Positions 42,051 through 59,438 of a stretch of 64,000 bases of DNA are shown one piece after another (the first letter of the stretch is position 1; every line of letters starts with the position of its first letter). The notes below the pieces were generated by a model. That model did no database searches. It was given only the letters and a program-made list of their open reading frames with translations, and had not been told where the DNA came from. The stretch is from assembly GCA_003725745.1 (NCBI GenBank), contig RHDP01000001.1, positions 248,001 to 312,000 on the forward strand, in the 5' to 3' direction. A program made the translations under genes and the position numbers. The stretch is from Streptomyces sp. I6. GTDB taxonomy: Bacteria > Actinomycetota > Actinomycetes > Streptomycetales > Streptomycetaceae.

Positions 42051-42431
42051 ATCCGGTCCCGGTGCCGCGTCAGGCGGGGTCTGCCCGTCAGGGAGCGGCG
42101 TCCGGTGCATGGGGATTCCCCCGGCCCTCCGGGCCGAGGGGAGGCAGCGCAAGGCGCCGGACCGGCCTCGTCGCGGGCCTACTCGGTTGATTCGGCGACG
42201 CGGCGACGCGGCCATGCGGCCATGCGGCGAGCCTGCCGTGCCGGCCGGTGCGACGGGGCGAACGCCGGCTGATGCGGCACCAGCGCGGCGGCCGCCGGCG
42301 CGGGAGCGGCGAGTGGTTCCGACCGTGCGGGGACGCCCCGCCCGGGCCACTCGCCGGCTCCGGCGGGGCACCGGCCGGACGGCGTACGGGGTGACGGCCC
42401 GTCGGGGCACCGCCGCCACCGTGCGCCGTGG
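42051..42431. other. Intergenic, short 8-bp repeats
   Basis: Convergent gap before the hydrogenase operon end. Holds CGGCGACG twice and CGGCCATG twice in tandem at about 42194-42226. No gene recognised. Confidence 0.5.
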
Positions 42432-43498
42432 TCAGCAGATGCGGGGCAGTTGCTCGCCGAGCGGCAGGTCGACCACGCGCGTGCCTCCCAGCCCGGTGCG
42501 GGCGACCACCATCCCGGGGTGGTCCGCCACCGCCTCGCCGATCACCGCCGCCTCCCGTCCGAGCGGGTGGGCGCGCATGGCCGCCAGCACGGCGTCGGCG
42601 TGCTCCCGGGGGACGAAGGCGACGAGCTTGCCCTCGTTGGCGACGTACATCGGGTCCAGCCCCAGCACGGCGCAGGCGTTCGCCACCGGGGCCGGGACCG
42701 GAACGGCCCGCTCCCGGACGACGACTCCGGTGCCGGAGGCCGCGGCGATCTCGTTGAGCGCGGCGGCCAGTCCACCGCGGGTCGGGTCGCGCAGGACGTG
42801 CAGGTCCTCCGTGACCGCGAGCATGGTCTCGACGAGGCCGGCGAGGGCGGCGCAGTCGCTCTCGATCTCGACCCCGAACTCCAGGCCCTCGCGCACACTC
42901 ATGACGGCCACGCCGTGGACGCCGATCGGACCGCTGACGATCACCACGTCACCGGGCACGACGCGCTGCGGCCGCAGGTCGACCCCGGGCCGGACCAGTC
43001 CGATGCCGGAGGTGTTGATATAGATCCCGTCGCCGTGACCCGCCTCGACGACCTTGGTGTCGCCGGTCGCCACCTCCACTCCCGCGGCGCGGGCCGCCTC
43101 GCCGAGTGCTTCGGCCACCCGCCGCACCACCCCGGTCTCGACGCCCTCCTCGAGGATGAACCCGCAGGAGAGGTACGCGGGGCGGGCTCCGCTCATGGCG
43201 AGGTCGTTGACGGTCCCGTTGACGGCGAGGTGCCCGATGCTCCCGCCGGGGAAGAACAGCGGGCGCACCACGAAGGAGTCGGTGGTGAACGCGAGCCGGG
43301 CGCCGCCGAGTTCGACCGTCGCGGAGTCGCCCATGGCGGACAGCGCGGGTCCGCCGTAGGCGGGCGCGAAGACGTCGCGGACCAGTTCCGCGGACAGGGC
43401 GCCGCCCCCGCCGTGGCCCATCACCACCCGGGGCTGGTCCCGCAGCGGAAGGGGCACGTCCAGGCGAGGACGTCCGGCGCTTCGGTGGTCTCAGACAA
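42432..43498 (-). CDS. hypE: HypE, carbamoyl dehydratase of [NiFe] cofactor synthesis; one suspected 1-nt assembly error
   Basis: Dehydrates its own C-terminal thiocarbamate to make the Fe cyanide ligands. AIRS-like fold: [100 protein letters not shown], and the essential terminal PRIC with Cys as last residue. Adding one base at 43451-43454 extends the N-terminus to [20 protein letters not shown] and a TTG start at 43498 behind GGGAGGG, overlapping the HypD stop. A shorter GTG start at 43457 is the alternative. It is the last gene of the operon. Confidence 0.94.
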
Positions 43499-44623
43499 CG
43501 GGGCTGCCCTCCCGGGGACGGGACGCGGCGGACGGCAGGTCCAGCCGCCGGTAGAGGTAGTAGGCCGCGCAGGCTCCCTCGCTGGAGACCATCGTGGCCC
43601 CGAGTGGCGAGCGCGGGGTGCAGTCGGTGCCGAACGCCTCGCACTCGTGGGGCTTCAGCAGGCCCTGCAGCACCTCCCCGCTGCGGCAGGCCGCCGGTTC
43701 GCGGGTGTCGATGCCGGTGACCTGGAAGCGGTGCTCGGCGTCGTACTCCCGGTACCGGGCAGAGAGCCGCCAGCCGCTGTCGGGGATGATGCCGATACCG
43801 CGCCAGGCGCGGTCGGTGACCTCGAAGACGTCGTCCAGCATCGCGCGGGCCGCCGGATTCCCCTCCGGCCGGACGGCGCGGGGGTAGGCGTTCTCCACGG
43901 AGTGCTCGCCGCGCTCCAGTTGCAGCACGGTGCGGCGCACGCCCTCGAGGATGTCCAGCGGCTCGAAGCCGGTGACCACGACGGGGACCCGGTGCCGCTC
44001 GGCGAGTTCGGGGTACTCGCCGGTGCCCATCACACTGCACACGTGTCCGGCGGCGAGGAAGCCCTGCACCCGGCAGTTCGGGGACCGCATGATGGCCTCG
44101 ATGGCGGGAGGCACCCGCACATGGGACACCAGCAGGCTGAAGTTCGGGATGCCGAGCCTGCGGGCCTGATAGACCGTCATGGCGTTGGGCGGCGCGGTGG
44201 TCTCGAAGCCGATACCGAAGAACACCACCTGACGGCCGGGGTTCTGCCGGGCGATGCGCAGCGCGTCGAGCGGCGAGTACACCACCCGTACGTCACCGCC
44301 CTCGCCGCGCACCTGGAAGAGGTCGCGGCCGGTCCCCGGCACCCGGAGCATGTCGCCGAAGGAGCAGAAGATCACCCCGGGGCGGGAGGCGATCTCCAGG
44401 GCCTTGTCGATGACCTCCAGCGGGGTGACGCAGACCGGGCAGCCGGGGCCGTGGATCAGTTCGACCTCGTCGGGGAGAAGCTGGTCGATGCCGTGCCGGA
44501 TGATGGTGTGCGTCTGCCCCCGCACACCTCCATCAGCGCCCACGGCCGGGTCACGGCGGACCGGATCTCGCCGAGCAGCCGCTCGGCCAGCGCCGGGTCC
44601 TGGAACTCCTCGATGTACTTCAT
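43491..44623 (-). CDS. hypD: HypD, Fe(CN)2CO scaffold protein; one suspected 1-nt assembly error
   Basis: Scaffold for assembly of the Fe(CN)2CO unit with HypC. About 378 residues: [20 protein letters not shown] at the start (ATG 44623, overlapping the HypC stop as ATGA), [68 protein letters not shown], and C-terminal [20 protein letters not shown]. All conserved Cys motifs are present. The frame is broken at C44517-44521, inside EVCGGQT; one more base restores it. Position between HypC and HypE is canonical. Confidence 0.95.
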
Positions 44624-44922
44624 CGCCGGGCCTCCTCGCGGGATGGGCCGAACCCTTCGGGCCCGCCCGACTCGTCCGGGTCGCCGAACTCCTCCTGGAG
44701 CAGCCCGAGGTTCTCGAACAGCTCCAGGGTCCGCCGGGCCGACTCCTCGTCCAGCCGCTGCAGCGCGAATCCCACGTGGACGACGGCGTACTCACCGACC
44801 CGGAGATCGGGCAGGTACTCCAGGCACACCTCCTTGACCACCCCGCCGAAGTCGACGGTGGCCATACGGGTGCCGTCCCGGTCCTCGATGTCCAGCACCC
44901 TGCCGGGTACCGCCAGGCACAT
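44620..44922 (-). CDS. hypC: HypC, hydrogenase maturation chaperone
   Basis: A 100-residue HypC/Hup[21 protein letters not shown] with the essential Cys2, then [20 protein letters not shown] and [20 protein letters not shown]. It binds HypD and the large-subunit precursor to deliver the Fe ligand set. The acidic/Gly tail [15 protein letters not shown] is longer than in E. coli HypC. Its stop overlaps the HypD ATG by 4 nt. There are 36 bp between the end of hypF and its ATG. Confidence 0.96.
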
Positions 44923-44958
44923 GCCGCTCTCCTCGCTGTCGTGCCGTGTACCGCTCGT

Positions 44959-47417
44959 TCATCTCGTGTCTCCCGCGGCCCGGGCGGCCACGACCAGCTG
45001 GCCGAGCGCCAGTCCCCCGTCGTTCGGCGGGATCCGGTGGTGCCGCAGTACGGTGAAGCCGTCGTCCCGCAGGCCCGCGGCGCACGCCGAGGAGAGCACC
45101 GCGTTGGCGAACACTCCGCCGGTCAGCGCGGCGGTCCGCAGCCCGTGCCGCTCCCGTGCCAGGGCGCAGACCCTGCGGACGAGCACGGCCACCGCGGCGT
45201 GGAAGCGCGCCGCGACCACGGGCGCCGGGGTGCCCGCGCGCACGTCGCCGGCGACGGCCGCCAGGACGGGGGCGGGGTCGGCGGTCATCGCGGCGGCGGG
45301 ACCGCCGCACGCGGGACGCAGTCCGAAGGCGTACGGCTCCCCGTAGCCGCCGTCCGCCAGGACGGCGGCCGCTTCGAGTTCGATCGCGGCCTGCGCCTCG
45401 TAGCCCGCGACGTGGCACACGCCCGCGAGGGAGGCGACCGCGTCGAAGAGGCGGCCCATGCTGGAGGTGGGAACGCAGTTGAGATTCCGCTCCAACTGCG
45501 TTCGCAGCAGCGGGAGTTCCTGCTCGGGGCAGGCGGCGGTGCACGGCAGCTCGCCGCTCCAGCCGATACCGGCCGCGCGCAGATGGGCGAGGGCCATGCG
45601 GTAGGGGAGCCGCACGGCCGCGTCACCGCCGGGCAGGGGGACGTAGGCGAGGTGCGCGAAGCGGTGGAAGCCGTCGTAGTCGGCGAGCAGGAACTCGCCG
45701 CCCCACACGGCGCCGTCGTCCCCGTAGCCGGTGCCGTCGAAGGCGACGCCGATCACGGGGCGGCCGCCGTCGAGGCCGTGTTCGGCCATCGCGGAGGCGA
45801 TGTGCGCGTGGTGGTGCTGGACGTGCACGACGGGCCGGCCGCCGGCGGCGTGTCCGGCCCAGCGGGCGGAGCGGTAGCCGGGGTGCCGGTCGGCGGCGAG
45901 CAGCTCCGGCCGCACTCCCGTGATCGCCTCCAGCTGCTCCTCCGCGCGGGCGAAGGCGTGCTGGGTGGCGAGGTCGTCCATGTCGCCGATGTGCGCCGAC
46001 AGCCATGCCTTGCGGTCCCGGCCCAGGCAGAAGGTGTTCTTCAGGTCCCCGCCGACCGCGAGGGCGGGCCGGACCGGCACCGGCAGGGTGACCGGCAGCG
46101 GGGCGTGTCCCCGGGAGCGGCGGAGGGTCAGGAGTTCCCCGTCGCAGACCCGCACCACCGAGTCGTCGCAGGGGACATGGATGGGGCGGTCGTGCAGCAG
46201 CCAGGCGTCGGCCAGGTCCGCCAGCCGCTCCAGCGCGTCCCCGTCGTCGGTGACGATCGGCTCCCCCGCCACGTTGCCGCTGGTCATGACGAGGAGCCGG
46301 GGACCGGTGTGCTCCTCGCCGGGAAGGCCGAGCAGCAGCTGGTGCAGCGGTGTGTACGGAAGCATCACGCCGAGGTCGGGGCTGCCGGGTGCCACCCCGT
46401 CCGCCGGCCACGGGACTCCGGGCGGGGCGTCCGCGGGCGGTACGCGGCGGCGCATCAGGACGATCGGCCGCGCGGGGCCGGTGAGCAGTTCCCGCTCCTC
46501 GGCTCCGAGGTGGACCAGATGCCCGATGTCCCCGATGTCCCGGGCCATCAGTGCGAACGGCTTGTCGCCGCGGGACTTGCGGCGGCGCAGCAGTGCCACG
46601 GCGCCCTTGTTGCCGGCGTCGCACGCGAGGTGGTAGCCGCCGAGGCCCTTCACGGCGAGGATCGCCCCGTCGGACAGCAGCTCTCGGGCCTCCCGGACCG
46701 GGTCGGCGGCTACCGGCCCGCCGAGGCTGCGGTCGTTGGGGTCCGGCGCGACCACGTGCCGGGGCGCAGCCCCGGGGCGGCGGGGGCCACCATCAGCCGC
46801 AGCCGCGGTCCGCAGGAGGGGCAGGCCACGGGCTGGGCGTGGAAGCGCCGGTCGCCCGGGTCGGCGTACTCCCGGGCGCAGTCGGGGCACATGGGGAAGC
46901 CGGCCATCGTCGTGTGTGCGCGGTCGTAGGGCAGGCCGGTGACGATGGTGAAGCGCGGACCGCAGTGCGTACAGGTGATGAAGGGGTGCCGGTGGCGCCG
47001 GTCGGCCGGGTCGGCGAGCTCCCGCAGGCAGTCGCCGCAGGTGGCGGTGTCCGGAGAGACCAGGGTGCGGACGGGCCCGTCCCGGTCCGAGGCGAAGATG
47101 AGGAATCCGCTGCCGCCGGCGACGGGCACCTCCTGGTCGTGGACGGACTCGACGACCGCGAGCGGCGGGGCGTCCTCGGCGATCCGGGCGCAGAAGCGGG
47201 CCACCGCGAGCGGGGCGCCCTCGACCTCGGCGACGACGCCGTCACCGGTGTTGGTCACATGGCCGGTCAGCTCCAGCCCGGTGGCGAGGCTGTGGAGGAA
47301 CGGGCGGAAACCCACCCCCTGCACGACTCCCCGCACGGTGACCCGCCGCCGCTGGACCGTCGCGGGTGCGGCGAGCCCGGGCCGGGAGGCGGCCGGGCCC
47401 GGCGCGGAGGTGGTCAC
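44959..47417 (-). CDS. hypF: HypF, carbamoyltransferase; one suspected 1-nt assembly error
   Basis: About 819 residues. It converts carbamoyl phosphate + ATP to the thiocarbamate on HypE. Domains: acylphosphatase ([20 protein letters not shown]), two zinc-finger pairs ([30 protein letters not shown]), YrdC-like ([20 protein letters not shown]) and Kae1-like with [20 protein letters not shown] and [18 protein letters not shown]. The frame breaks at 46770-46773; adding G joins MVAPAAPG to [21 protein letters not shown] 47417 overlaps the HypB stop (GTGA). Complete and canonical apart from that site. Confidence 0.95.
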
Positions 47418-48109
47418 GCCCGGGCCTGGGCCATCACCGGCATGTGGACCGCGGTGCCTTCCGCCGCGGCCAGGGCCCGGTCGAGCAGCACTCCCGCGCC
47501 GGCGCCGGTGCGGGCGGAGGTGAGGACCACGTCCACGCCCGGATTGACCTGCTCGACGTTGGCCCGGAAGGCGGCCTCGTCGAAGCCGACGGCCTCCGCG
47601 ATGTCGGTCTTGGTGACGATCACGAGGTGGGCGAGGCCGAAGGCCGTCGGGTACTTCAGCGGCTTGTCCTCGCCCTCGGTGACGGAGGCCAGCACCACCC
47701 TCAGAGCCTCGCCGAGGTCGTAGGAGGCGGGGCAGACGAGGTTGCCGACGTTCTCGACGAAGATCAGCCGGGTGTCCTCGGCCGGCCAGTTGCGGAGGTG
47801 TCCCGCGAGCATGTCGGCCTCGAGGTGGCAGAGCCCGTCGGTGAGCACCTGCTTGACGGGGAGTCCGGAGCGGGCCAGGCGCATGGCGTCGTTCTCGGTG
47901 GCGAGGTCGGCCGTGAGGGCTGCGGCGGTGACGCCCCGCTCCCGCGCGAGCAGGAGTTCGGCCTCGAGCAGGGCGGTCTTCCCGCTGCCGGGGCTGGAGA
48001 GCACGTTGACGACGGTCGTCCCGCGCGCGGCCAGTTCCCCGCGCAGGACGCCGGCCGTCGCGTCGTTCTTGGCCAGCACCGCCTGCTGCAGATCGACAAC
48101 ACGGCACAT
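47414..48109 (-). CDS. hypB: HypB, GTPase for nickel insertion
   Basis: 231 residues. SIMIBI GTPase with P-loop NVLSSPGSGKTALLEAELLL, switch region LTADLATENDAMRLA, HLEADMLAGHLRNW, FVENVGNLVCPASYDLGEAL, VIVTKTDIAEAVGFDEAAF. The His-rich nickel-storage N-terminus of some HypBs is absent; the protein starts MCRVVDLQQAVLAKNDATAG. It delivers Ni with HypA. Located 4 bp after the HypA stop and overlapping HypF by 4 nt. Confidence 0.96.
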   Translation of the reverse strand: MCRVVDLQQAVLAKNDATAGVLRGELAARGTTVVNVLSSPGSGKTALLEAELLLARERGVTAAALTADLATENDAMRLARSGLPVKQVLTDGLCHLEADMLAGHLRNWPAEDTRLIFVENVGNLVCPASYDLGEALRVVLASVTEGEDKPLKYPTAFGLAHLVIVTKTDIAEAVGFDEAAFRANVEQVNPGVDVVLTSARTGAGAGVLLDRALAAAEGTAVHMPVMAQARA

Positions 48110-48112
48110 GCG

Positions 48113-48505
48113 TCAGCCCTCCTGGGAGATCGGTTCGCGAACCCCGGGGTCCGCGGGGTCGTCGTGCCACTCCACGGCGGCGATCCGCAGCTCGCGGCCT
48201 GAGACCAGCTCCGCGGTGGCCCGGTCGCACACCGGGCAGGCCAGCCGCGGCGGCATGCCCACCGCCCACTCGCCGCCGCACGGGGCGCAGCGGGCCCGGG
48301 CCGGGACGGTCTCGACGACGAGTCCGGCGCCTGCCACGACGGTGCCGGCGCAGGCCAGCCCGAAGGAGAAGGTGAGCGCGTCGGGGACCACTCCGGCCAG
48401 TTCACCGACCAGCAGGCGTACGGTGCGCACCCCGGTGGCACCGTGCGACCGTGCCGCCTCCTCGACCTGGTCGACGACGGCGAGCGCGATGGACATCTCG
48501 TGCAT
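48113..48505 (-). CDS. hypA: HypA, nickel metallochaperone
   Basis: 130 residues. MHEMSIALAVVDQVEEAARS carries the Ni-binding His2. A zinc site is formed by CAPCGGEW and CPVCDRA. The expected VRLLVGELAGVVPDALTFSF core is intact. ATG 48505 is fixed by the conserved MHEMS start although the frame is open upstream. The extra ~230 bp between this gene and the micropeptide gene upstream is GC-rich and apparently non-coding. Confidence 0.95.
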   Translation of the reverse strand: MHEMSIALAVVDQVEEAARSHGATGVRTVRLLVGELAGVVPDALTFSFGLACAGTVVAGAGLVVETVPARARCAPCGGEWAVGMPPRLACPVCDRATAELVSGRELRIAAVEWHDDPADPGVREPISQEG

Positions 48506-48738
48506 CGGTCTCCGTCCTGCGGGGCGGTGGTCCGCCGCGCCCGGGCGGGCGCGGCCCCGCCCATTACAGGGGCCCCCGCCGGGCCGGTCCGACCGGCGCG
48601 CCGACGGCGCCCGGTCGCGTCCGCCGTTCGGTGCAGCGGCCGCGTGGCCGGGCGGAGGGGGTCCACCGGGCAGCGCGGGCCCCGGCTGCTCACGGCAGAC
48701 GGGCCGCATCCCGCGGGGCAGACGGGCCGGGCGGGCGG

Positions 48739-48846
48739 TCACATCCTGCGGATGCGCAGATAGCGTCTGAGGTCCGGAAGGAGTCCCCTCACGAGCGCGA
48801 CGACCGCGGTGGCGGCTGCGGCTCCGCCGATGACCTTCTTGATCAT
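48739..48846 (-). CDS. 35-residue micropeptide in the hydrogenase operon (DUF6893-like)
   Basis: MIKKVIGGAAAATAVVALVR followed by GLLPDLRRYLRIRRM. A short N-terminal helix (residues 4-20) and a strongly basic C-terminus suggest a membrane-associated amphipathic peptide. AGGAGG lies about 8 nt before ATG 48846. The ATG overlaps the stop of the maturation protease gene (ATGA), so it is cotranslated. It resembles from memory the annotated DUF6893 small-protein family of Streptomyces; the name is tentative and the function unknown. Too short for most gene finders. Confidence 0.75.
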   Translation of the reverse strand: MIKKVIGGAAAATAVVALVRGLLPDLRRYLRIRRM

Positions 48847-49400
48847 GGGTGTGCTCCTCCTGTGATGCCGGTTCGTGCCGGGGCTGACGGGTGCACCAGG
48901 TCCGTGATCATGCGAACGGCTCCGGGTACGGCGGCGGCGACCCGCGGGCTGAGTCCGATCCCCTCCTCGACGCAGGCGGGCTCGCAGCCGACGACGAGGA
49001 TGCGCCGCGGCGGCTGTGCGCCGGTACCGGCGCAGAGCGTGTCCAGCAGGGCGAGTACGGCGTCGGGGGACATCCCGTGGCCGTCGAGGGCGCCGGAGTC
49101 CGTGCCGGTGTCCGTGGGGACGCCGGTGCCGCCGCCGGGGTCCGGCTCGACGAGGTAGAGCGTGCCGGGTTCCCCGCCGCGCGCCGTCGCGTCGACCAGG
49201 ACGAGGGTGTCGTAGCCGTCCAGCAGCCGGTAGGCGAGGTGGACGCCGCGGATGCCGATGTCCGCGACCTCGACGTGGTCCGGCAGCGGCCGCCCGGCCA
49301 GCGCGCGCACGGTCTCCACGCCGAAGCCGTCGTCGCCGAGGAAGATGTTGCCGGCGCCGGCGACGAGGGTCCGGGGGCCGTCCTGCGCGGGCGCGTTCAC
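48843..49400 (-). CDS. HybD/HycI-family hydrogenase maturation protease
   Basis: 185 residues. The fold is recognisable from LVAGAGNIFLGDDGFGVETV (GNxxxGDDGxG motif with the metal-binding Asp), VEVADIGIRGVHLAYRLLDG, YDTLVLVDATARGGEPGTLY and ILVVGCEPACVEEGIGLSPR. It removes the C-terminal peptide of the large subunit after Ni insertion. GTG 49400 overlaps the preceding gene by 4 nt, and its own stop overlaps the micropeptide ATG. Confidence 0.93.
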   Translation of the reverse strand: MNAPAQDGPRTLVAGAGNIFLGDDGFGVETVRALAGRPLPDHVEVADIGIRGVHLAYRLLDGYDTLVLVDATARGGEPGTLYLVEPDPGGGTGVPTDTGTDSGALDGHGMSPDAVLALLDTLCAGTGAQPPRRILVVGCEPACVEEGIGLSPRVAAAVPGAVRMITDLVHPSAPARTGITGGAHP

Positions 49401-50841
49401 GCTGTCTCCAGGGGTTCGACCTCGTCGGGCTGGAAGTAGAGGAACCGGCCCTGTTCGCGGCGGATGTCGGCGCCCGGGTCGCCCTCTACGGTGACCGCGA
49501 TGTGCACACCGCCGTCCACGTCGTGCAGCACGGCCTCGACCAGGGCGGTGCGGCCCTGCAGGAAGAGGTCCTGCGCGTCGCTGTGCCGCAGCCCGGGCCG
49601 CAGCACGACCCGGCTTCCCGCGCCGACGGCGACGCCGTCCACCACCACCCGGTCGTGCTCCGGGTCGACGCCGGTGTCGCCGCCCGGGTCCCACCAGGGG
49701 GTGTCGGGGCGGGCGGTGCCGTGGTCGGAGGGGGCGGACGGAGCGGGGGATCCCCCTGCGACGCGGGGCCGGTGGCCTCCCGCAGGCTGCGCACGGCGCC
49801 GTGCAGCCGCTCCAGGACCTCCGCCGGCATGGTGTCGGCGAGTTCGATGACCGCGGCCGCACGCTCGTCGGTGCCCCTGGCCTCGCGCTTCTCCTCGTCG
49901 GTGAGGGCCGCGGTGCGCAGGGCGAGGATCTCGTCGATCTCGGTGGCGTCGTACAGGGCACCGGGGCTCTCCGGCGCGATGGCCGGGTGGTCCTCGAGGA
50001 TGATCGGTGAGGACAGTACGAGGTCCGTTCGGCCGGGCTCTCCCGCGAGTACGGGCCAGGTGTGGAGGTTGCGGCAGGCCGCGACGGCACCCCTGGCCCA
50101 TTCCGGCGGGTCGGTCATGGACAGGAACGCGCCGCGGTCGAGGCAGAGCAGCAGATGGCTGGCGACCAGTGAGTGCGGCAGGGCCGCGTCGCGGTCCCCG
50201 CCGGGTTCCGGCGTCCGGTCGCCGGTGTTCTCCACGACGGCCGTGAGCCGCATCGTCCGGTAGGGGCCGTCGAGTCCGGCCGCGGACAGCCGGACGACGC
50301 CGCTGATCTCCTCGCGGCGGCGCAGCAGGCGGCCGAGGGGGCGTCCTTCGCCGTCCAGGACCGGTTCGGTCTCCTCACGGGCCGGGCGGGTGAAGGGTAC
50401 GTCGACGCCGTCGCCCGCCAGGTCGGCGACGGGCACGGTCAGTTCGACGCGTTCCTCCACGCCCTCGTCCCAGGGGACCAGGACCCGGTCGTCCAGGCGG
50501 AGTTCGGGGACCGTTGCGAACCCGCCGTCCGGGGCCGCCCGCTGGACGGTGCGCCGCCGGGCGTGCAGGAAGCGGACCTCCACCGCGAGGTTCGCGCCGG
50601 GCCGGGGTTCCATCAGGCATTCGGTGCGCTGGAGCGCGTGCTCCCCGCAGCGTGCGCTCCACGCTGGCGGCACGAGCACCCCGAACTGCCAGCGCAGCCG
50701 GTTCTTGGCCGCCGAGGCCCGGTAGGGGTACAGCACATAGCCCTCGAACAGGACCGCGTCGGCGACCTGGCGGGCGGTGGCGAGCCGGGCCTCGGTCGCG
50801 GGGGCGAAGGCGGCGGTGGCGAAGGCTGCGGTGGCGTTCAC
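49397..50841 (-). CDS. Unrecognised 481-residue hydrogenase-operon protein; one suspected 1-nt assembly error
   Basis: Soluble, no signal or membrane segment. It begins VNATAAFATAAFAPATEARL (GTG 50841, overlapping the DUF6084 stop) and includes ADAVLFEGYVLYPYRASAAK and NRLRWQFGVLVPPAWS near residue 40. The middle is beta-rich (LTVPVADLAGDGVDVPFTRP, EISGVVRLSAAGLDG); then LPHSLVASHLLLCLDRGAFL, LVLSSPIILEDHPAIAPESP, YDATEIDEILALRTAALTDE. A C-terminal segment (VVVDGVAVGAGSRVVLRPGL, LFLQGRTALVEAVLHDVDGG, VHIAVTVEGDPGAD) is joined only after adding one base at 49745-49749. I know no function. It sits in the operon core among DUF5947/DUF6084 and is probably an accessory or assembly factor of this hydrogenase class. 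Confidence 0.82.
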
Positions 50842-51479
50842 GGGGCGGTCCTCCCGCCGGACGCGTCGAGCAGGGCGTCGACCGTGGACTCCCAGGAGGG
50901 CAGGGCCCGCCGCGAGCGGAAGGCGAGGAGGGCGTCCATGGTCTCGCGGGGCAGCCTGATCCACCCGCAGCCCGGGAAGTGCTGGTCGAGCATCTCCTGC
51001 CAGACCTTCACCGGCATCCGGAACGCGGCCTCCCGGTCCCAGGGAACCGGTTCGACGTGGAATCCGCCGGCGCCGGTGAACGCGGTGCCGGAGAAGAGCA
51101 TCAGCAGCGGCACCTCGCCTTCGGACAGGGCGCGGGCGTAGCGGGTCGCGGCGACGTCCATGTCGTAGGTGCAGGGGACGGGCAGTTCGGTCTCGGTCTC
51201 TCCGGTGAAGCCGGGCACCATGTGGGAGACCTGCGCGAACTGGACCGGGTGCAGGGAGCTGCCCCAGCGGGAGCGTTCGCCGAAGAGGTCCTTCAGTCCC
51301 TCGGCTTCCGCGTCGGCGTAGCCGCGACGGGCCGGTTCGATGCGCAACTGGCAGCGCAGGGCGAGTGCGTGGACCCGGGTCCCGGGGGTGGCGGTGATGC
51401 GCAGCCGGAAGACGAGCGTCGGGCCGGCGGCGTAGGGGTCGGCCCGTACGTCCGTGCAGTGGAAGGTGAATTCGGTCAT
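50838..51479 (-). CDS. DUF6084-like hydrogenase-operon protein
   Basis: 213 residues, mostly beta. MTEFTFHCTDVRADPYAAGP, TLVFRLRITATPGTRVHALA, LRCQLRIEPARRGYADAEAE, then MVPGFTGETETELPVPCTYD, FSGTAFTGAGGFHVEPVPWD and a C-terminal helical part LPRETMDALLAFRSRRALPS. The name DUF6084 is from memory of actinobacterial hydrogenase loci. ATG 51479 overlaps the DUF5947 stop, and its stop overlaps the next gene, both by 4 nt. Function unknown; the strict operon position suggests assembly or stabilisation of the hydrogenase. Confidence 0.83.
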   Translation of the reverse strand: MTEFTFHCTDVRADPYAAGPTLVFRLRITATPGTRVHALALRCQLRIEPARRGYADAEAEGLKDLFGERSRWGSSLHPVQFAQVSHMVPGFTGETETELPVPCTYDMDVAATRYARALSEGEVPLLMLFSGTAFTGAGGFHVEPVPWDREAAFRMPVKVWQEMLDQHFPGCGWIRLPRETMDALLAFRSRRALPSWESTVDALLDASGGRTAP

Positions 51480-52141
51480 GCCCGGCTCCCCCGGAGCGGT
51501 GTGGCCCGCTGTCGTACGCGGTCGAAGAAGGCGTCGAGTTCGGCGCGGGCCCGGGGGCCGCCGTCGAAGCCCTGCCAGGTGAGCCGCATCCGGCCCACGA
51601 GTTCGTAGGTGGTGTCCACCGGCACCAGATGGCACTCGGTGCGGCCGCCGGAGCGGCGCAGCAGCAGGGCCTCCACGTCGGGTTCGAGCATCCCGGCCAG
51701 CCCGGTGGCGGACAGCACCGTCTCCCAGGCGGACGGGTCCGGCTCGCTCTCGGTGGCGCCGGCCGGGCTCGGGTAGAGCGCGACGGGCCGTCCGAGTGCG
51801 GAGTTGTGGAAGAAGAAGGCGACGCCGACGGGGATCCGCAGCAGTTCCCAGGTGGTGTCGTCGATGCGGTGTCCGGGATCGGTGAGGTGGCGCGAGGGCA
51901 CGGCCCGGAAGCGGCCCCGGGACGCGCCGGGCCGGTCGAGGAGCTGGGTGCACGGACCGCAGGCGCAGGCCAGTGCCCGGTTCTCGGTGTCCACGAGGTG
52001 CCGGTGCGGTACGTCGGGGAGCGCCGCGCCGCAGAGTTCGCAGCGTTCCTCGCGGGGCGGCCGGGGCGCCGTGAACCGGCGCAGTCCGCGTCGGTCCGGG
52101 GCGGTCCGCGGCCGCCCCGGACCCGTCGGGAGCGCGCTCAC
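51476..52141 (-). CDS. DUF5947-like hydrogenase-operon protein with Cys motifs
   Basis: 221 residues. An N-terminal treble-clef-like pattern CELCGAALPDVPHRHLVD...ACACGPC (CxxC...CxCxxC, about residues 37-70) probably binds zinc or an Fe-S cluster. Then FRAVPSRHLTDPGHRIDDTT, IPVGVAFFFHNSALGRPVAL and YELVGRMRLTWQGFDGGPRA. The label DUF5947 is from memory. GTG 52141 overlaps the NifU-like stop and its stop overlaps DUF6084. Role unknown; the Cys motif and location suggest cofactor delivery to the hydrogenase (inference). Confidence 0.83.
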   Translation of the reverse strand: MSALPTGPGRPRTAPDRRGLRRFTAPRPPREERCELCGAALPDVPHRHLVDTENRALACACGPCTQLLDRPGASRGRFRAVPSRHLTDPGHRIDDTTWELLRIPVGVAFFFHNSALGRPVALYPSPAGATESEPDPSAWETVLSATGLAGMLEPDVEALLLRRSGGRTECHLVPVDTTYELVGRMRLTWQGFDGGPRARAELDAFFDRVRQRATPLRGSRA

Positions 52142-52725
52142 CGCGCGGTGGCCGGTGCCCGGCCCGCGGCGGAACCGCCGCCGGGCGGTCCGGCGCCGAT
52201 CTGCAGCAGGGCCGGTTCACGGGTGACCGGCTCCAGTTCGACGGCCGTCACCTCGGGTGCGAAGCAGGCGAGTGCCTCGACGGCCGCCTGCCGGGCGACC
52301 TCCCGGGTGCTGGGGCAGCCGCATCCGGTCGAGCCGGTGAGGCGCAGCCGCAGGACTCCGGTGGTCTCGTCGAAGCCGGCCGATTCGAGGGAGTGCCGGA
52401 CTCCGCGCAGCGCCCGGGTGATCCGGGTGGGCACGTCCTCGGGGTGCAGATCGTGCAGGACCAGCAGGCTGCTGACGAGTTCGTCGCCGAGCAGCCCGTT
52501 GAGCGGCGCCGGGGGGTGTCCTGCGGCGGACGCGTCGTCGCCGGGCCGGCCGAGCAGTTCCACGGTCCTGGCCAGGGCGGCGCCGTAGAAGTCCATGAGG
52601 ACCCGGACCAGTTCCTCGGCGGCCGTGCACGCCTGCTCGTCGCCGCCGGCGGCCAGCCGGTCGAGGATCTCCTCGACCCGCCGGCCCGCCCGCTCGGCAC
52701 TGACCGTGCCGGTGACCGGGCTCAT
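52138..52725 (-). CDS. NifU-like Fe-S protein of the hydrogenase operon
   Basis: 195 residues. The N-terminal half is helical (RRVEEILDRLAAGGDEQACT, LVRVLMDFYGAALARTVELL). The C-terminal part is a NifU_C-like domain with LRLRLTGSTGCGCPSTREVA, where GCGCPST replaces the usual CxxC scaffold motif, followed by VEALACFAPEVTAVELEPV. It may pass an Fe-S cluster to the small subunit or serve a structural role. ATG 52725 overlaps the large-subunit stop by 4 nt. It is conserved in group 1h loci as far as I recall. Confidence 0.85.
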   Translation of the reverse strand: MSPVTGTVSAERAGRRVEEILDRLAAGGDEQACTAAEELVRVLMDFYGAALARTVELLGRPGDDASAAGHPPAPLNGLLGDELVSSLLVLHDLHPEDVPTRITRALRGVRHSLESAGFDETTGVLRLRLTGSTGCGCPSTREVARQAAVEALACFAPEVTAVELEPVTREPALLQIGAGPPGGGSAAGRAPATAR

Positions 52726-54499
52726 CCGGCGAGGCCGCTCAGGCCGGTGGGCACGTGCATCGACTTCACGGTCCTGCCGTCGCCGACGTACATGTGGACG
52801 CCGCAGGGCAGGCACGGGTCGAAGCTGCGGACGGCCCGCATGATGTCGATGCCCTTGAAGTCCTCCGGGGAGTTCTCCTCGAAGATGGGCGTGTTCTGCA
52901 CCGCGTCCTCGTAGGGGCCGGGGGTGCCGTAGGTGTCGCGGGTGCTCGCGTTCCACGGGGTCGGCGGGTACGGGTGGTAGTTGGCGATCTTGCCGTCCCT
53001 GATGACCATGTGGTGGGAGAGGACGCCCCGGACGGCCTCGGTGAATCCGACGCCGATGGACTCGTCGGGCACGTCGAACTTCTCCCAGGTCTGGCTGCGT
53101 CCGGCGCGTACCTCTTCGAGGCCCTTCTCCGCGAAGTGCAGCGCGACGGCGGCGGCGTACGCCTGGAAGTAGGTGCGGGCGCGGTTGCGCTCCAGGGCGT
53201 TGCTCCACTGCGGGATCTTCCACTCGAAGGTGGTCTCCGGCTTGGTGAGCGAACGCGGCAGGTTGATGACGACGCTGTGCCCGGTGGCCTTGACGTAGCC
53301 GATGTCGACGAGGCCGGAGAGCGCGGTGGACCAGAGCCGGGCGATGGGGCCGCCGCCGGTGTCGAGCGGCAGGTGGTCCTTGCCGTCGAACCAGCGCGGG
53401 GACATCACCCAGCTGTACTTGTCCGCGAAGTCGCGCTTCTGGGGGCGGGGATGGTGTGCTGGTTCCACGGGTGGCGCGGGTCGACCGGGTTGCCGAGCGG
53501 GTCGTGGGTGACGAACTGCTCCTGGCCCTCCCAGTCCTCGTAGTACGAGCTGCCGAGCAGGATCCGGATGCCGAGGTTGATCTGCGTGAGGTCGTTGGTG
53601 ACCAGCTTGCCGTCCACGACGACGCCCGGGGTGACGAACATCCTCCGTCCCCAGTCGGTCATGTTGGCGTAGGTGAAGTCGCAGTACTCGGGGTCGTTCA
53701 GGGCGCCCCAGCAGCCGAGCAGCACGCGCCGGCGGCCGACCTCCTCGTAGCCGGGCAGGGCCTCGTAGAAGAAGTCGAACAGATCGTCGTGGAGCGGTAC
53801 GACCCGCTTCATGAACTCCACGTACCGCATCAGGCGGGTCATGTAGTCCGTGAAGAGCTGGACGGAGGCTACCGTGCCCACACCGCCCGGGTAGAGCGTG
53901 GAGGGGTGCACATGGCGGCCCTCCATCAGGCAGAACATCTCCCGGGTGTAGCGGCTGACCTGGAGGGCCTCGCGGTAGAACTCGCCCTCCAGCGGGTTGA
54001 GCGAGCGCATGATGTCGGCGATGGTGCGGTAGCCGTGCTCGGCGGCGTGCGGGGCCTCGGTGCGCTCGGCGAGTTCGAGGACGCCGGGGTTGGTCTCGCG
54101 GACCATCTTCTCGCAGTAGTCGACCCCGACCAGGTTCTCCTGGAAGATGTTGTGGTCGAACATGTACTCGGCGGACTCACCGAGGTTGATGATCCACTCT
54201 CCGAGGTGCGGCGGCTTCACCCCGTACGCCATGTTCTGGGTGTAGACCGAGCACGTGGCGTGGTTGTCACCGCAGATGCCGCAGATGCGGCTGGTGATGA
54301 AGTGCGCGTCGCGCGGGTCCTTGCCCCGCATGAAGACGCTGTAGCCGCGGAAGACCGACGAGGTGCTGTAGCACTCGGCGACCCGCTTCTGCTTGAAGTC
54401 GATCTTGGTGTGGATCCCGAGACTGCCCACGATCCGGGTGATCGGATCCCAGGACATCTCCACCAGGCCGTCGCCGGCCGCTTGTGTCTTCGGTGCCAT
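52722..54499 (-). CDS. hhyL: [NiFe]-hydrogenase large subunit, group 1h type; one suspected 1-nt assembly error
   Basis: 592 residues, the catalytic subunit. N-terminal Ni ligands in RICGICGDNHATCSVYTQNM (about residue 65); C-terminal ligands in SFDPCLPCGVHMYVGDGRTV, followed by a roughly 20-residue extension ending VPTGLSGLAG that would be removed by the maturation protease after His. The frame breaks at G53447-53450; one added base joins NQHTIP to RPQKRDFADKYSWVMSP. ATG 54499 (MAPKTQAAGDGLVEMSWDPI) is chosen; an in-frame GTG about 24 nt upstream is possible. The sequence style and gene neighbours match the actinobacterial high-affinity H2 oxidising enzymes (Hhy/Huc). Confidence 0.95.
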
Positions 54500-54570
54500 C
54501 GTGTGTGCGGTGCCCTTCTTCACGTCTTCACGTCGTCGAGCAGGAGGGGTGCCGGGGCCCCGGAGCGGGG

Positions 54571-55664
54571 TCACATGGGCCACGGGGGCCGGTAGCCGGT
54601 GGTGATCCTGTCGCCCGTGTGGCGCCACCTGGGCTCCTTGTCCACGGTCCTGGCGGTGATGCCGCGGAGCCTGCGGATCACGGCGCCGTAGGCGCCGCTG
54701 GCCGTGCTGGAGAGCTTTCCGCCGGGCGGCTCGTCCATGAACGGCATGAACTTGTCGGGGAAGCCGGGCATGGTGCAGGCGATGCAGATGCCCCCCACGT
54801 TGGGGCATCCGCCGATCCCGTTCATCCAGCCGCGCTTGGGCACGTTGCACTTGACGACGGGCCCCAGCAGCCGATCTTCACCAGGCACTCGGGCGAGTCG
54901 TACGTCTCGGCGAACTGGCCCTGCTCGTAGTAGCCCGCCCGGTCGCAGCCCTCGTGGACGGTCTGGCCGAACAGCCAGGTGGGGCGGAGCTTGTCGTCGA
55001 GCGGGATCATCGGTGCGGAGCCGGCCGCCTGGTACAGCAGGTACGTGAGGGTCTCCGCGAAGTTGTCCGGCTGGATCGGGCAGCCCGGGACGCACACGAT
55101 GGGGATGCCCGCCTTGGACTTCCAGTCCCAGCCGAGGTAGTCGGGCACGCCCATGGCACCGGTGGGGTTGCCCGCCATGGCGTGGATACCGCCGTACGTG
55201 GCGCAGGTGCCGATCGCCACCACGGCGAGGGCGTTGGGCGCCAGCCGGTCGATCCACTCGCTGGTGGTGATGGGCTGGCCGGTCTCGGGATCGTCGCCGA
55301 AGCCGCACCAGTAGCCCTCCTGCTTGATCGACTCATTGGGCACGGAGCCCTCGACGACCAGCACATAGGGGTCGATCTCCCCGCGCTCCGCCTTGAAGAA
55401 CCACTCGATGAAGGTGTCGGCGCCGCCCACCGGGCCGCACTCGAAGTCGATCAGCGGCCAGTGGACCTGGATCTTCGGCAGTCCCGGCAGGGCACCGAGG
55501 GCGATCTCCTCGATGCTCGGCTGCATGGCGGCGGTCAGCGCGACCGAGTCCCCGTCGCAGCTCAGTCCGGCGTTGATCCAGAGAATATGGATCGGCTTGT
55601 CTTCGGCGGTGGCCGCGCCGGACGAGGCCGCGGCGTCGACCGTGGTCGGCGTTCCTGCATCCAT
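54571..55664 (-). CDS. hhyS: [NiFe]-hydrogenase small subunit, group 1h type; one suspected 1-nt assembly error
   Basis: 364 residues carrying the Fe-S relay. No Tat signal, as in cytoplasm-facing group 1h enzymes. The proximal-cluster motif reads INAGLSCDGDSVAL: the usual first Cys is replaced and an Asp is next to the ligands. This matches the three-Cys/one-Asp proximal cluster known in the Ralstonia actinobacterial-type hydrogenase and linked to O2 insensitivity. Other cluster regions: GTCATYGGIHAMAGNPTG, CVPGCPIQPDNFAETL, CDRAGYYEQGQFAETYDSPE, CLVKIGCWGP then VVKCNVPKRGWMNGIGGCPN, GGICIACTMPGFPDKFMPF. The frame breaks at C54862-54865. ATG 55664 has AGGAGA 8 nt upstream. Confidence 0.95.
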
Positions 55665-55720
55665 GGGGGCATCTCCTGGGGATATGCGAGAGAAGATCCG
55701 TTCTAGGCTTTCGTCCCTTG
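55665..55720 (-). promoter_or_regulatory. Lower-GC gap upstream of the small-subunit gene
   Basis: This 56-bp spacer between HypX and the small subunit is less GC-rich than its surroundings and is one of the few real gaps in the operon. It could hold an internal promoter for the structural genes; it contains TAGAAC and a GGGACG element on the minus strand. Confidence 0.4.
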
Positions 55721-57427
55721 CTAACAGGCGGCCGTTGCCGCTGCCACCGAGGCCTCCTCCGGGCGGGTGTCCCCCGCGGACTCCTTCCGTACGAAGGCCC
55801 GCCGCAGCCGGTGGTACGGCGCGGCCGGGTCCGAGAACGTCCGCCGCATCCGGGCCAGCTCGTCGTCGCGGTACGCGGCCAGGGGCCGCACGCCCTCGTC
55901 GCGCTCCCGCGCGGCCTTCTTGGCCGCGATCCGGGACTGGGTGGAGGGATTGGGAGCGAGGCGTGCCGCCATCCGGGTGACCTCGCCCGGGAACTCCTCC
56001 GGACCGCATTCGACGACCCGCTCCACCAGACCGTGGCGGAGGGCCGCGGTCGCGGTCAGCGGCAGGGCCTGGGAGGTGAGGCGTTCGGCCATGGGACCGC
56101 CCACGCGGCGGGGCAGGGAGTACGTCCAGTACTCCGAGCCGTACAGGCCCATGAGCCGGTAGTGGGGGTTGAGGACCGCTCCCGCGCGGCACCACACCTC
56201 GTCGGCGGCCAGCGCCAGCATCACCCCGCCCGCGGCCGCGTTGCCGCCCACGGCGGCCACGACGAGCCGGTCCGTGGTGGTCAGCACGGCCTCCACGAGA
56301 TCGTCCATGGCGTTGATGTTGGCCCAGGACTCGGCCGCGGGGTCGGCGGCGGCCTCGATGACGTTGAGGTGGATGCCGTTGGAGAAGAAGTCCCGGGCCG
56401 CCCCGAGCACCAGCACCGAGGTGGGCCGGGAGCAGGCCACCCGGTAGGCGTCGAGCAGCCGCCGGCAGTGCTCCGTGCTCATCGCGCCGCCGGGGAAGGA
56501 GAACGACAGCACGCCGACGGGCCCCTCCTCCCGGTAGCGGATGTCGCTCCAGGTCCGGCGGCGGTCGCCGAGGCCGAGGGGCGCGGGGAGATCGGGCAGC
56601 GGCGGCAGCCGCCGCCCGAGCGCCAGGGTGGCGGGCAGCTTGAAGGAGCGCCCCCCGGCGTCGCGGCGGGGACGCAGCTCGGGGATCCACACGGCGCCGT
56701 CCGCGGTGGCCCGGCACAGGGCGCCCGCCCTGGTGGCCAGCAGTTCGCCGGGGCGGCCGCGCAGCCGGTCCTCCGGGTGGCCGCCGTGGAGGAACCACTC
56801 GCCGTCGAGCAGCTCGTCGAGCACCCCCGGCCGGGAGTCCGCGGCACGCAGCTTGCGCAGCACGGTCTCGGTGGAGTCGTCCTCCCAGGAGATCCGCCGG
56901 AAGTCCTGGCGGACGTACGGTCTGGCGCACACCCGGCCGCCCCCGGCGCTCTGCGGCCGGGGCACATGGGTACCTGAGGCGAAGCGGTCGACGGCGAGGA
57001 GGACGGCGGTGACGGCGGCGTCGGAGACCTCGCCGCGGTAGAGGTCGCTCTTGGCGAGCGGCGGGAGGGCGACGTTCGCCGTGGCCCAGACGTCTCCGGC
57101 GTCCATCTCCCCGTCGGCCTGCAGGACGGTCACGCCCCAGACCCCGGCGTCCTCCTGGACCGCGTAGTCCAGGGACGACGGGCCGCGGTCGCCCACCGGG
57201 CCGGGGTGGACGACGAGGCAGGTGTGCCGGGTCCAGACGTCGGCCGGGATGGCCGCCTTCAGCAGGGGCGCGAGCACGAGGGCCGGCTCGTGCCGCCGGA
57301 CCGCCTCGCGCACGGCGTCCCCGTCCGGGGTGCGCTCGACGGCGACGGTGTGGCCCCGGTCCCTCAACTCCGCGTGGACGCGCTGGGTGAGGCTGTTGTA
57401 GGCACTGGCGACGAGGAGGATGTGCAT
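55721..57427 (-). CDS. hypX: HypX, CO-ligand synthesis enzyme
   Basis: 568 residues in two parts. The N-terminal formyl-THF hydrolase/transferase-like domain (MHILLVASAYNSLTQRVHAE, LVVHPGPVGDRGPSSLDYAV, GVTVLQADGEMDAGDVWAT) is followed by a C-terminal crotonase-like domain (VGVLSFSFPGGAMSTEHCRR, NGIHLNVIEAAADPAAESWA, VVAAVGGNAAAGGVMLALAA). HypX makes the active-site CO from formyl-tetrahydrofolate in aerobic organisms. ATG 57427 has GGAAGG 7 nt upstream. Its presence fits a hydrogenase matured and working in air. Confidence 0.93.
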   Translation of the reverse strand: MHILLVASAYNSLTQRVHAELRDRGHTVAVERTPDGDAVREAVRRHEPALVLAPLLKAAIPADVWTRHTCLVVHPGPVGDRGPSSLDYAVQEDAGVWGVTVLQADGEMDAGDVWATANVALPPLAKSDLYRGEVSDAAVTAVLLAVDRFASGTHVPRPQSAGGGRVCARPYVRQDFRRISWEDDSTETVLRKLRAADSRPGVLDELLDGEWFLHGGHPEDRLRGRPGELLATRAGALCRATADGAVWIPELRPRRDAGGRSFKLPATLALGRRLPPLPDLPAPLGLGDRRRTWSDIRYREEGPVGVLSFSFPGGAMSTEHCRRLLDAYRVACSRPTSVLVLGAARDFFSNGIHLNVIEAAADPAAESWANINAMDDLVEAVLTTTDRLVVAAVGGNAAAGGVMLALAADEVWCRAGAVLNPHYRLMGLYGSEYWTYSLPRRVGGPMAERLTSQALPLTATAALRHGLVERVVECGPEEFPGEVTRMAARLAPNPSTQSRIAAKKAARERDEGVRPLAAYRDDELARMRRTFSDPAAPYHRLRRAFVRKESAGDTRPEEASVAAATAAC

Positions 57428-57634
57428 GACGGCCTTCCACCGGATCCGGCGGCTGGGCCGTGCCGCACGGCGGCGCCGCCTGCCCGGAGGGCCAGGCGGG
57501 ACTTCGCGGACGCGCCCCAGGGCCGGCGGGGAGTCCGGCCGACTGCGATGCTCCGGCACGGCGGGGCCCCGGAGCCGGTACGGAGCCGCGGGGGTCACTC
57601 GAAAGCGACCCCCGGCGGGACCGATCGGCGGCGC

Positions 57635-57924
57635 TCAGAACGCGGAGTACCGCTCCGGCATGGGCAGCTCCACACCGTCCAGCTCCAGGGTGCAGCCGGG
57701 TTTCACCCGGACCAGGTGCGGCTGGTGGACCCGGACGACGAACTCGCGGGCCGGGTCGTCGGGGAGCAGCCCGTTGAGCACCGTCGTGCCCGTCCCGTGC
57801 TCCCGCCGGTAGGCGATCACCTTGCCGTCGACCAGGAGCTCGATTCCCCCGGTCCTGCCGGGCCGACGTTGACGGTGATCGAGTGGTCGCCGCGGTCGAC
57901 GTGGAAGTGGTGGTTACGCGACAT
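57635..57924 (-). CDS. Conserved-looking small beta-rich protein upstream of hypX; one suspected 1-nt assembly error
   Basis: With one base added at 57846-57850 this reads as a 96-residue protein: MSRNHHFHVDRGDHSITVNV, GPAGPGGIELLVDGKVIAYR, then VLNGLLPDDPAREFVVRVHQ and a C-terminus LELDGVELPMPERYSAF. It alternates short beta strands; the His-rich start could bind metal. GGAGG is 6 nt before ATG 57924, so the start is strong. It is the first minus-strand gene of the hydrogenase locus and divergent from the Tm-1-like gene. Not assigned to a family. Confidence 0.75.
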
Positions 57925-58051
57925 GGCACACCTCCACGGTGGACAGCCGGTCCGGCCGGCGCCGCGGGGGTGCGGCCCCGGTCGCGGGAACGCGGCCGCG
58001 AGGCGCCTCCGCACCCTTGCCGCTGCGCCGGTACGCGCGGACAGTACCAGG

Positions 58052-59320
58052 ATGGCGATCGTCGTCCTGCTCGGCACCCTGGACACCAAAGGCCTCGAGT
58101 ACGCGTGGCTGCGGGAGCGGCTGCTGCGGCACGGTCTGGAGGTGGTGGTCGTCGACGCGGGGGTCACCGGCGAGCCGCGGCTGCGCGCGGACGTGCCGCG
58201 GTCGGAGGTGGCCCGCTCGGCGGGCGCGGACCTGGCGCGGCTGCGGGCCGAGGGTGACCGCGGCGCCGCCGTCGCCGCGATGGCCCGGGGCGCGGCCGCC
58301 ACCCTGCTCCGGCTGTACGAGACCGGGCGGCTGCACGGGGTGCTGGCGCTCGGCGGCAGCGGCGGGACGTCCATCGCGACCCGTGCCATGCGCGGACTGC
58401 CCCTCGGCGTGCCGAAGCTGATGGTGTCCTCGATGGCGTCGGGCGACGTGGCACCGTACGTCGGATCCGCGGACGTCACGATGATGTACAGCGTCGTCGA
58501 CATCGCCGGGGTCAACTCGGTGTCGGCCCCGGTCCTGGCCAACGCCGCCGACGCCGTGGCCGGAATGGCGAAGGGGTTCGCCGCGAGCCCCCGGGCGCTC
58601 CGGCCGGACCGGCTGGGGACGGGCGGCAGGCCGCTGGTGGCGGCGAGCATGGCGGGCGTCACGACGCCCGGGGTCGACGCGGCACGCGAGCGGCTGACCG
58701 GCCTCGGCTACGAGGTGCTGGTGTTCCACGCCAGCGGCACGGGCGGCCGCACCCTGGAAACCCTGGCCGGACAGGGGCTGTTCGCGGGCGTGCTGGACCT
58801 GACGCTCAGTGAGCTGGCGGACGAGCTGCTCGGCGGCACCATGACCGCGGGCCCCGGCCGGCTGACCGCCGCGGGCCGCCGGGGCACACCCCAGGTGGTG
58901 GGCCTCGGGGCCCTCGACATGGTGAAGTTCGGCCCTCCGCACACCGTCCCGGAGCGGCTGCGGGACCGCGACGTGCGGGTGCACAACCCGTCGGTGACCG
59001 TGGTCCGCACGACCGGGGCCGAGTGCGCCGAACTCGGCCGCGGCATCGCGGAGAAGCTGCGCGGCGCCAGGGGGCCGGCCGTGGTGTGCGTGCCGCTGCG
59101 CGGGCTGTCGACGCTCGGGGCGCCGGACGGGCCGTACCACGACCCGGACGCCGACGCGGCCCTGTTCGGTGCGCTGCGGGAGGGCCTGCGGGGCAGCGCG
59201 GTGAGGACGGTGGACTTCCCCACGCACATCAACGACCCGTCGTTCGGCCGGGCCGCCGCCGAGCGGCTGCACGCGCTGATCGGCCGCGCCGGGCGGGCGC
59301 CTGCCGCGGGCGGCGCATGA
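58052..59320 (+). CDS. Tm-1-like ATP-binding (UPF0261) protein
   Basis: 422 residues. Two-lobed UPF0261 protein: AIVVLLGTLDTKGLEYAWLR at the N-terminus, VLALGGSGGTSIATRAMRGL and KLMVSSMASGDVAPYVGSAD in lobe one; PLVAASMAGVTTPGVDAARE and EVLVFHASGTGGRTLETLAG in lobe two; GALDMVKFGPPHTVPERL near the end. The plant Tm-1 homologue binds ATP and inhibits viral replication; bacterial members have no settled role. ATG 58052 has a weak site. Divergent from the hydrogenase locus. Confidence 0.9.
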   Translation: MAIVVLLGTLDTKGLEYAWLRERLLRHGLEVVVVDAGVTGEPRLRADVPRSEVARSAGADLARLRAEGDRGAAVAAMARGAAATLLRLYETGRLHGVLALGGSGGTSIATRAMRGLPLGVPKLMVSSMASGDVAPYVGSADVTMMYSVVDIAGVNSVSAPVLANAADAVAGMAKGFAASPRALRPDRLGTGGRPLVAASMAGVTTPGVDAARERLTGLGYEVLVFHASGTGGRTLETLAGQGLFAGVLDLTLSELADELLGGTMTAGPGRLTAAGRRGTPQVVGLGALDMVKFGPPHTVPERLRDRDVRVHNPSVTVVRTTGAECAELGRGIAEKLRGARGPAVVCVPLRGLSTLGAPDGPYHDPDADAALFGALREGLRGSAVRTVDFPTHINDPSFGRAAAERLHALIGRAGRAPAAGGA

Positions 59321-59438
59321 GCGCACCGGCCCCGGCCGCGCCGGCGGGAACCGGACGGTGCCGTTCATGTGTCTGTCGTGGGGAGGACGGCGCGCGCGGC
59401 CGGCCGTGAACTCCGGCCGCGTCCGCCGAGGGGGTGGG

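Follow-up and report, generated by a model that had tools for sequence, protein, structure and literature searches.

A conserved four-gene accessory module of group 1h hydrogenases pairs an invariant Cys/His motif in DUF5947 with a degenerate HhyE in Streptomyces

The stretch of Streptomyces sp. I6 DNA analysed here (the window, 64,000 nucleotides of contig RHDP01000001.1) contains a hydrogenase operon in which four genes lie between the large subunit, HhyL, and its maturation protease. They encode a short NifU-like protein, a DUF5947 protein, a DUF6084 protein and a fourth protein, called P4 below. We found that these four genes form an accessory set conserved with hydrogenases of group 1h (the actinobacterial type), present in the order of the Cupriavidus necator genes PHG066-069. 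The set is known in print and mostly uncharacterised, and the window holds a further member of it, one with a degenerate copy of the NifU-like protein HhyE. Among the metal-type motifs of the module, only that of DUF5947 was found in every complete copy examined. On the balance of the evidence we put at roughly 55% the probability that the four proteins, with DUF5947 providing the metal site, are dedicated assembly factors of the small subunit and not parts of the finished enzyme.

The operon is encoded on the minus strand. It starts with the hydrogenase small-subunit gene hhyS (54571..55664; PF01058), followed by the group 1h large-subunit gene hhyL (52722..54499), the genes for the 195-residue NifU-like protein (52138..52725; PHG066 position), the 221-residue DUF5947 protein (51476..52141; PHG067 position), the 213-residue DUF6084 protein (50838..51479; PHG068 position) and P4 (49397..50841; PHG069 position), and a gene for a HycI-type hydrogenase maturation protease (48843..49400; PF01750, E 1.6e-12; TIGR00072). 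From hhyL to the protease gene, neighbouring genes overlap by 4 nucleotides, ATGA or GTGA, at all five junctions, in agreement with an earlier note, made from the letters of this DNA, that had the four genes in this order and overlapping between large subunit and protease. The DUF5947-like and DUF6084-like identities proposed there were also recovered, with 230.9 bits for PF19372 (E 1e-68) and 322.2 bits for PF19562 (E 1.7e-96), each against a curated cut-off of 25. The small subunit carries a CDGD motif, which we take to be the 3Cys-1Asp site; the motif is present in 105 of the 106 loci scored, and loading of this cluster by the module, a putative role raised in the same note, is possible. 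Evidence for protection from O2, another role suggested there, was neither looked for nor seen in this analysis. Both large-subunit motifs of group 1h, as worded in PMC5364354, are present in the translation of the window's HhyL: L1, TSRICGICGDNH, and L2, SFDPCLPCGVH.

Co-occurrence was surveyed in 198 Actinomycetota genomes, and the first 350 residues of the window's HhyL served as the query for the large subunit. HhyL matches of 63-100% identity were obtained in 24 genomes. DUF5947 was found in 23 of the 198 genomes, DUF6084 in 22 and P4 in 23, the last with a profile (A3) of 20 P4 proteins from which the window's copy and those of L102, L114, L115, L116, L122 and L124 were excluded as broken, split or cut. 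These numbers correspond to 22, 21 and 22 of the 24 HhyL-positive genomes plus a single further genome (G189), where HhyL was undetected, the module families are present and the 6,878-base contig ends within DUF5947. None of the three families occurs in the other 173 genomes, among them seven in which the best match to HhyL reaches no more than 38-45% identity. The association with HhyL exceeds chance. Two incomplete cases involve contig ends or a damaged gene: G042, whose contig stops within DUF6084, is without DUF5947; in G184 (L119) a cut HhyL runs into an apparent HypE, with module genes not found on the contig, reflecting either a deletion or a misassembly.

Gene order tells the same story. 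We followed it in 84 loci selected via DUF6084, namely the best 80, all from Streptomyces and near kin, of 430 DUF6084-encoding stretches obtained in one scan of species genomes, and four of the 10 plasmid records that carry DUF6084. The order DUF5947, DUF6084, P4, protease is kept in all 84. HhyL and the NifU-like gene precede DUF5947 in 83 of them, the remaining locus being cut by the start of its contig; HhyS is also present in 82, and the shortfalls (L134 and L196) are contig ends. The four plasmid records, from Cupriavidus necator H16, Mycobacterium intracellulare, Methylocystis parvus and Kitasatospora, have the same annotated order. On the M. intracellulare plasmid (L129, NZ_CP012886.2, typed mobilizable), the group 1h operon sits upstream of a nuo gene set. 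With HhyL in 83 of 84 DUF6084 loci, homologues of the module are not found mostly away from hydrogenases, and the idea of an accessory module dedicated to the group 1h enzyme is upheld. The module cannot, however, be called undescribed, as it had been in the earlier note, since PHG066-069 of C. necator, hhaABC of Thermomicrobium and a deletion of HhyE are all in print.

The most constant feature of the module is the Cys/His motif of DUF5947, CxxC..HxH..CxCxxC. Counted over all operon loci fetched, it is intact in 106 of 106 complete DUF5947 copies; the 107th copy (L126) was left uncounted because its contig ends before the motif. In alignments of 22 diverse and 81 Streptomyces-type DUF5947 sequences, the five Cys and two His residues are invariant.

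The metal motifs of the NifU-like protein, by contrast, appear to be dispensable. As had been noticed in the letters, the window's protein has a GCGCPST stretch, in which GCGC stands where the CxxC of NifU is expected. Its NifU-like domain is followed by just 24 residues, and the two-CxxC Rieske-like C-terminal domain is absent. The protein is 49% identical (E 1.6e-28) to the full-length HhyE of another genome, G182, and occupies the same operon position. PF01106, the NifU/Nfu scaffold family, left it unmatched at E 0.01 and had no match in its own genome at E 0.001. Four full-length HhyE relatives compared with Pfam all matched PF01106; on their tails, the Rieske family PF00355 scored above the cut-off in L115 and L107, below it in L106 and not at all in L129. 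We scored the tail by pattern, as two CxxC after the NifU domain. Across the 105 loci with a NifU-like gene, CxxC and tail are both present in 15, CxxC only in three and neither in 87, and the tail never occurs alone. For the 26 diverse loci (the window, the fetched diverse stretches and the four plasmids) the corresponding numbers are 15, three and eight. The other 79 loci are Streptomyces-type, and the Cys pattern in 75 of these is GCGC.

Joint absence of the two motifs is scattered over the HhyL tree. This tree has 33 rows, includes eight of the 79 Streptomyces-type loci, omits L120, which offered no usable large-subunit segment, and is rooted for drawing only. The 16 rows with neither motif require four changes, and the well-supported branches alone force four. 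They fall into the main Streptomyces clade, the lineage of G128 and G171, G140 and two Proteobacteria. The repeated absences may be read as losses. When the full-length HhyE of G182 was used as a query, one match each was obtained in the window's genome (G000), G023, G171 and G128, in every case the operon's own short copy, so that a second copy was not seen in those genomes; the matches in G000, G128 and G171 extend across a stop. A search for a compensating residue in the lineages with degenerate HhyE gave one candidate, a HhyL Cys beside the L1 motif. This Cys (CSC pattern), just after RICGICGDNH, occurs in 10 of the 15 loci whose HhyE is full-length and in none of the 12 whose HhyE is degenerate, a distribution that is partly lineage-bound. 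As to the make-up of HhyE itself, the idea that it is a fusion of the NifU-like protein with DUF5947 was rejected, because full-length HhyE has a tail of its own and DUF5947 is a separate gene that follows it.

P4 and DUF6084 have no conserved Cys cluster in our alignments. At E 0.01, neither of the two open pieces of the window's P4 had a family match in Pfam or NCBIfam; 20 P4 proteins compared with Pfam gave scattered weak matches only (Phage_TAC_7 in three, best E 0.0013; DUF6439 in one; DUF4836 in one). In a predicted model of P4 (mean pLDDT 75), the N-terminal half is rich in beta structure, the middle is poorly predicted, and the C-terminus forms a small beta domain, which we take to be SH3-like. 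The top Foldseek match of the model was DrmA of the phage-defence system DISARM (7s9v_A; E 3.2e-5, probability 1.00), at a low TM-score by query of 0.23; the only other match under E 0.001 had a probability of 0.18. The DrmA profile of PADLOC, applied at E up to 1, matched nine of 20 diverse and 47 of 78 Streptomyces-type P4 sequences, whereas the controls gave none (DUF6084, 0 of 21; DUF5947, 0 of 22). In the best case (E 2.3e-6), P4 residues about 49-298 align to positions about 76-310 of PDLC02573. The 78 (alignment A5) came from 80 loci, L133 and L175 being excluded for broken frames; alignment A4 comprises the window and all 80. The reverse searches against 12 DrmA-like proteins were weak: the diverse P4 profile reached E 0.0023 with L233 and nothing else under 0.5, and the Streptomyces P4 profile had a best E of 0.77; the profile-profile (hhalign) probability was 13. 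P4 is about 480 residues long and gave no helicase match. By profile comparison it is unrelated to DUF6084 and to DUF5947, and a PDB sequence search with the profiles of all three families returned nothing credible. The resemblance of the N-terminal region of P4 to DrmA and that of its C-terminus to an SH3-like domain, as seen in relatives, are thus predicted leads.

In the 27 stretches L101-L127, P4 is one open frame in 16 and a complete P4 is absent from seven. In four (L114, L115, L116 and L124, all of family f15), the N-terminal beta-rich and C-terminal SH3-like halves are separate adjoining frames, which suggests that P4 is a two-domain protein also found as two genes.

How does the module relate to what has been described? 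In C. necator, the published cluster contains hofKG and maturation genes; PHG066-069 are listed there as four ORFs without an assigned function, and PHG070 as a putative protease (PMC4377017). Its likeness to the window lies in the NifU-like, DUF5947, DUF6084 and P4 genes between large subunit and protease, the PHG numbers being assigned to families by gene order. The Cupriavidus NifU-like protein lacks the Cys motif yet matches PF01106, whereas that of the window has GCGC and does not. In Thermomicrobium roseum, conserved hypothetical proteins hhaABC share an operon with hhyLS (PMC6776052), with three genes named there against four in the window. In alphaproteobacterial methanotrophs, four coding sequences of unknown function lie beside hhyL, and the NifU-like domain is missing in one species (PMC12319191). 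HhyE of M. smegmatis (MSMEG_2718), encoded downstream of the structural genes, is a NifU-like homologue that goes with group 1h and is needed for Hhy activity; it possesses a NifU-like CxxC and two C-terminal CxxC (PMC6883350), neither of which is found in the window's protein; M. intracellulare (L129) was aligned as a stand-in for M. smegmatis. A more distant parallel is the extended hyp operon of Nostoc (asr0689-alr0693), where a NifU-like gene between the uptake hydrogenase and hyp genes has been proposed to act in small-subunit assembly (PMC2408588). The likeness, shared with HucE, is limited to the NifU-like accessory gene: in Nostoc it is accompanied by TPR and NHL proteins and by two small proteins that have transmembrane regions, and in the seven genomes with 38-45% HhyL matches DUF5947, DUF6084 and P4 are all missing. 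In one of our literature searches, a single paper, PMC9361827, named DUF5947 or DUF6084.

In the literature searched, hhyE was the one module gene for which a deletion was found. Its removal in M. smegmatis lowered H2 uptake 8.4-fold, and Hhy staining was lost even when an artificial electron acceptor was used (PMC6883350). Loss of staining under these conditions suits a defect in assembly better than one in downstream electron transfer. The Huc oligomer is described as HucS, HucL and HucM, and 'HucE' does not appear in the main text of PMC10017518. Taken together with the absence of HhyE motifs and the constancy of the DUF5947 motif, these results point to small-subunit assembly with a metal site in DUF5947. 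According to this reading, the four proteins would act on the Fe-S small subunit before it is joined by the protease-processed large subunit. DUF5947 would be the metal-binding core through CxxC-HxH-CxCxxC, and the NifU-like HhyE might serve as a docking or scaffold partner that can do without metal motifs of its own. A scaffold or chaperone role may fall to DUF6084 and P4, DUF6084 being dispensable. The known small-subunit maturation families HupGHIJ and HoxOQRT, under what we take to be their family names, gave no Pfam match in the window's proteins (E 0.01) or in 20 P4 proteins (E 1); the HupGHIJ sequences themselves were not compared.

Several observations weigh against this assignment. 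Contact of any of the four proteins with the small subunit is putative. The AlphaFold2 model of DUF5947 (mean pLDDT 78) had no match in the PDB under E 0.001; its weak fold matches, several of them of roadblock or longin type, are not relied on. Two genomes of the window's genus, G171 (L117) and G128 (L118), represent a second operon lineage in which DUF6084 is absent, P4 lies upstream of hhyS and HhyL shares just 72-74% identity with the window's. G182 has a truncated P4, and the protease was not found on its stretch. In G140, which has a degenerate HhyE, the full-length HhyE of G182 matches four places, three of them besides the operon and one over the tail alone (E 1.6e-4), and the tail may therefore be supplied from elsewhere in that genome. 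Thermomicrobium and Methylacidiphilum make group 1h enzymes without HhyE (PMC6883350), so HhyE is not universally needed. Likewise, an active group 1h enzyme is reported from Methylacidiphilum fumariolicum, in which homologues of the hypothetical proteins of the operon are absent (PMC7174314), and the module is thus not strictly necessary for every enzyme of the group. Finally, HhyE reportedly co-localises with HhyLS on native gels, as would fit a stable partner, and MSMEG_2717, the PHG067 homologue, has been named a candidate electron acceptor (PMC6883350).

The last two points lead to the main rival, a serious one, which we consider the less probable account. DUF5947, together with the NifU and Rieske-like centres of HhyE where these are present, would take electrons from HhyS toward the respiratory chain. 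A conserved Cys/His motif in DUF5947 is as expected for such a relay, and so is a Rieske match above the cut-off in two of the four full-length HhyE tails scanned. Moreover, cytochrome b was not found in the Hhy operon of M. smegmatis, and the authors who named HhyE and MSMEG_2717 as candidates prefer HhyE as an electron acceptor, leaving a role in assembly possible (PMC6883350). An electron relay is, however, at odds with the loss of even dye-linked staining on deletion of hhyE. It also sits poorly with the four parts of the HhyL tree where the gene is kept but both HhyE metal motifs are absent, a second copy having been found in none of the genomes G000, G023, G171 and G128, with G140 as the exception.

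Alternatively, P4 and DUF6084 might build a scaffold for oligomerisation or membrane docking, comparable to HucM in Huc, the other proteins being minor partners. The lack of a conserved Cys cluster in both proteins would suit such a structural role, as would the fit of one end of the P4 model to PetP of the cytochrome b6f complex (Foldseek TMt 0.79, E 0.019) and the membrane association of several group 1h enzymes without anchors (PMC7174314). Yet the C. necator enzyme is described as cytoplasmic (PMC7174314, PMC4377017) though its operon contains all four genes, and some operons do without DUF6084; we consider this account improbable. Least likely is that the four proteins help to process the large subunit, through Ni insertion or presentation to the protease: their frames overlap hhyL on one side and the protease gene on the other, but Hyp genes for that task are already in the cluster, and the NifU and partly Rieske matches of HhyE indicate Fe-S chemistry.

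In the window, the protease gene is followed by a 35-residue DUF6893 protein (48739-48846, minus strand; PF21833) that overlaps its end, and then by genes that we presume, from their translations, to encode HypA, HypB, HypF, HypC and HypD, in this order on the minus strand. Upstream of hhyS, on the same strand, an open reading frame at 55721-57634 has formyltransferase and enoyl-CoA hydratase halves, as read from its translation, and is presumably HypX; a gene annotated as 'hydrogenase maturation protein' is also located upstream of the small subunit in Kitasatospora.

Several frames of the operon are broken in the window. The earlier note had counted P4 as an intact protein of 481 residues; the span 50841-49397 is 1,445 nucleotides, which is not a multiple of three, and the frame shifts near 49740. 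The closest named relative among the matches listed is Streptomyces wuyuanensis (95% identity over DUF6084, 99% over the part of HhyL compared), relative to which the window has an 8-base insertion in P4 near 49740. Single bases are missing within G/C runs of hhyS (~54861), hhyL (~53441), hypF (~46761) and hypD (~44516). Over the 18 kb at 42403-60462, comparison with S. wuyuanensis (L132) gave 16 single-base deletions, some intergenic, and several small insertions, which suggests a poorly polished assembly; the completeness score of the genome is 87.42%. Among the 84 loci L128-L211, 82 have P4 in one open frame, and in L133 and L175 it is broken. The simplest reading is that the breaks in the window's operon are probably assembly errors. 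Since the P4 halves are separate frames in the f15 stretches, the break site in the window is also a natural joint, and P4 may instead be naturally split there. Decay into pseudogenes is disfavoured.

In the literature searched, we did not find the joint absence of the two HhyE motifs, the constancy of the DUF5947 motif or the link to DrmA, save for a mention of truncated HhyE without its C-terminal domains (PMC6883350). The paired absence amounts to a natural experiment, which sets a dispensable metal motif, that of HhyE, against one kept in every complete copy examined, that of DUF5947. This comparison singles out DUF5947 as the next gene of interest in the module. A more far-reaching view, which we offer tentatively, is that DUF5947, a family of metal proteins without a known fold, is the irreplaceable centre of assembly or of electron exit, that the Fe-S motifs of HhyE are one removable unit discarded jointly several times, and that P4 is built on a domain so far met with in the helicase DrmA. 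If true, hydrogenase assembly and the phage-defence system DISARM share a scaffold domain. The soil sink for atmospheric H2 is linked to group 1h hydrogenases, which this module accompanies and which let soil bacteria live on trace H2 in air.

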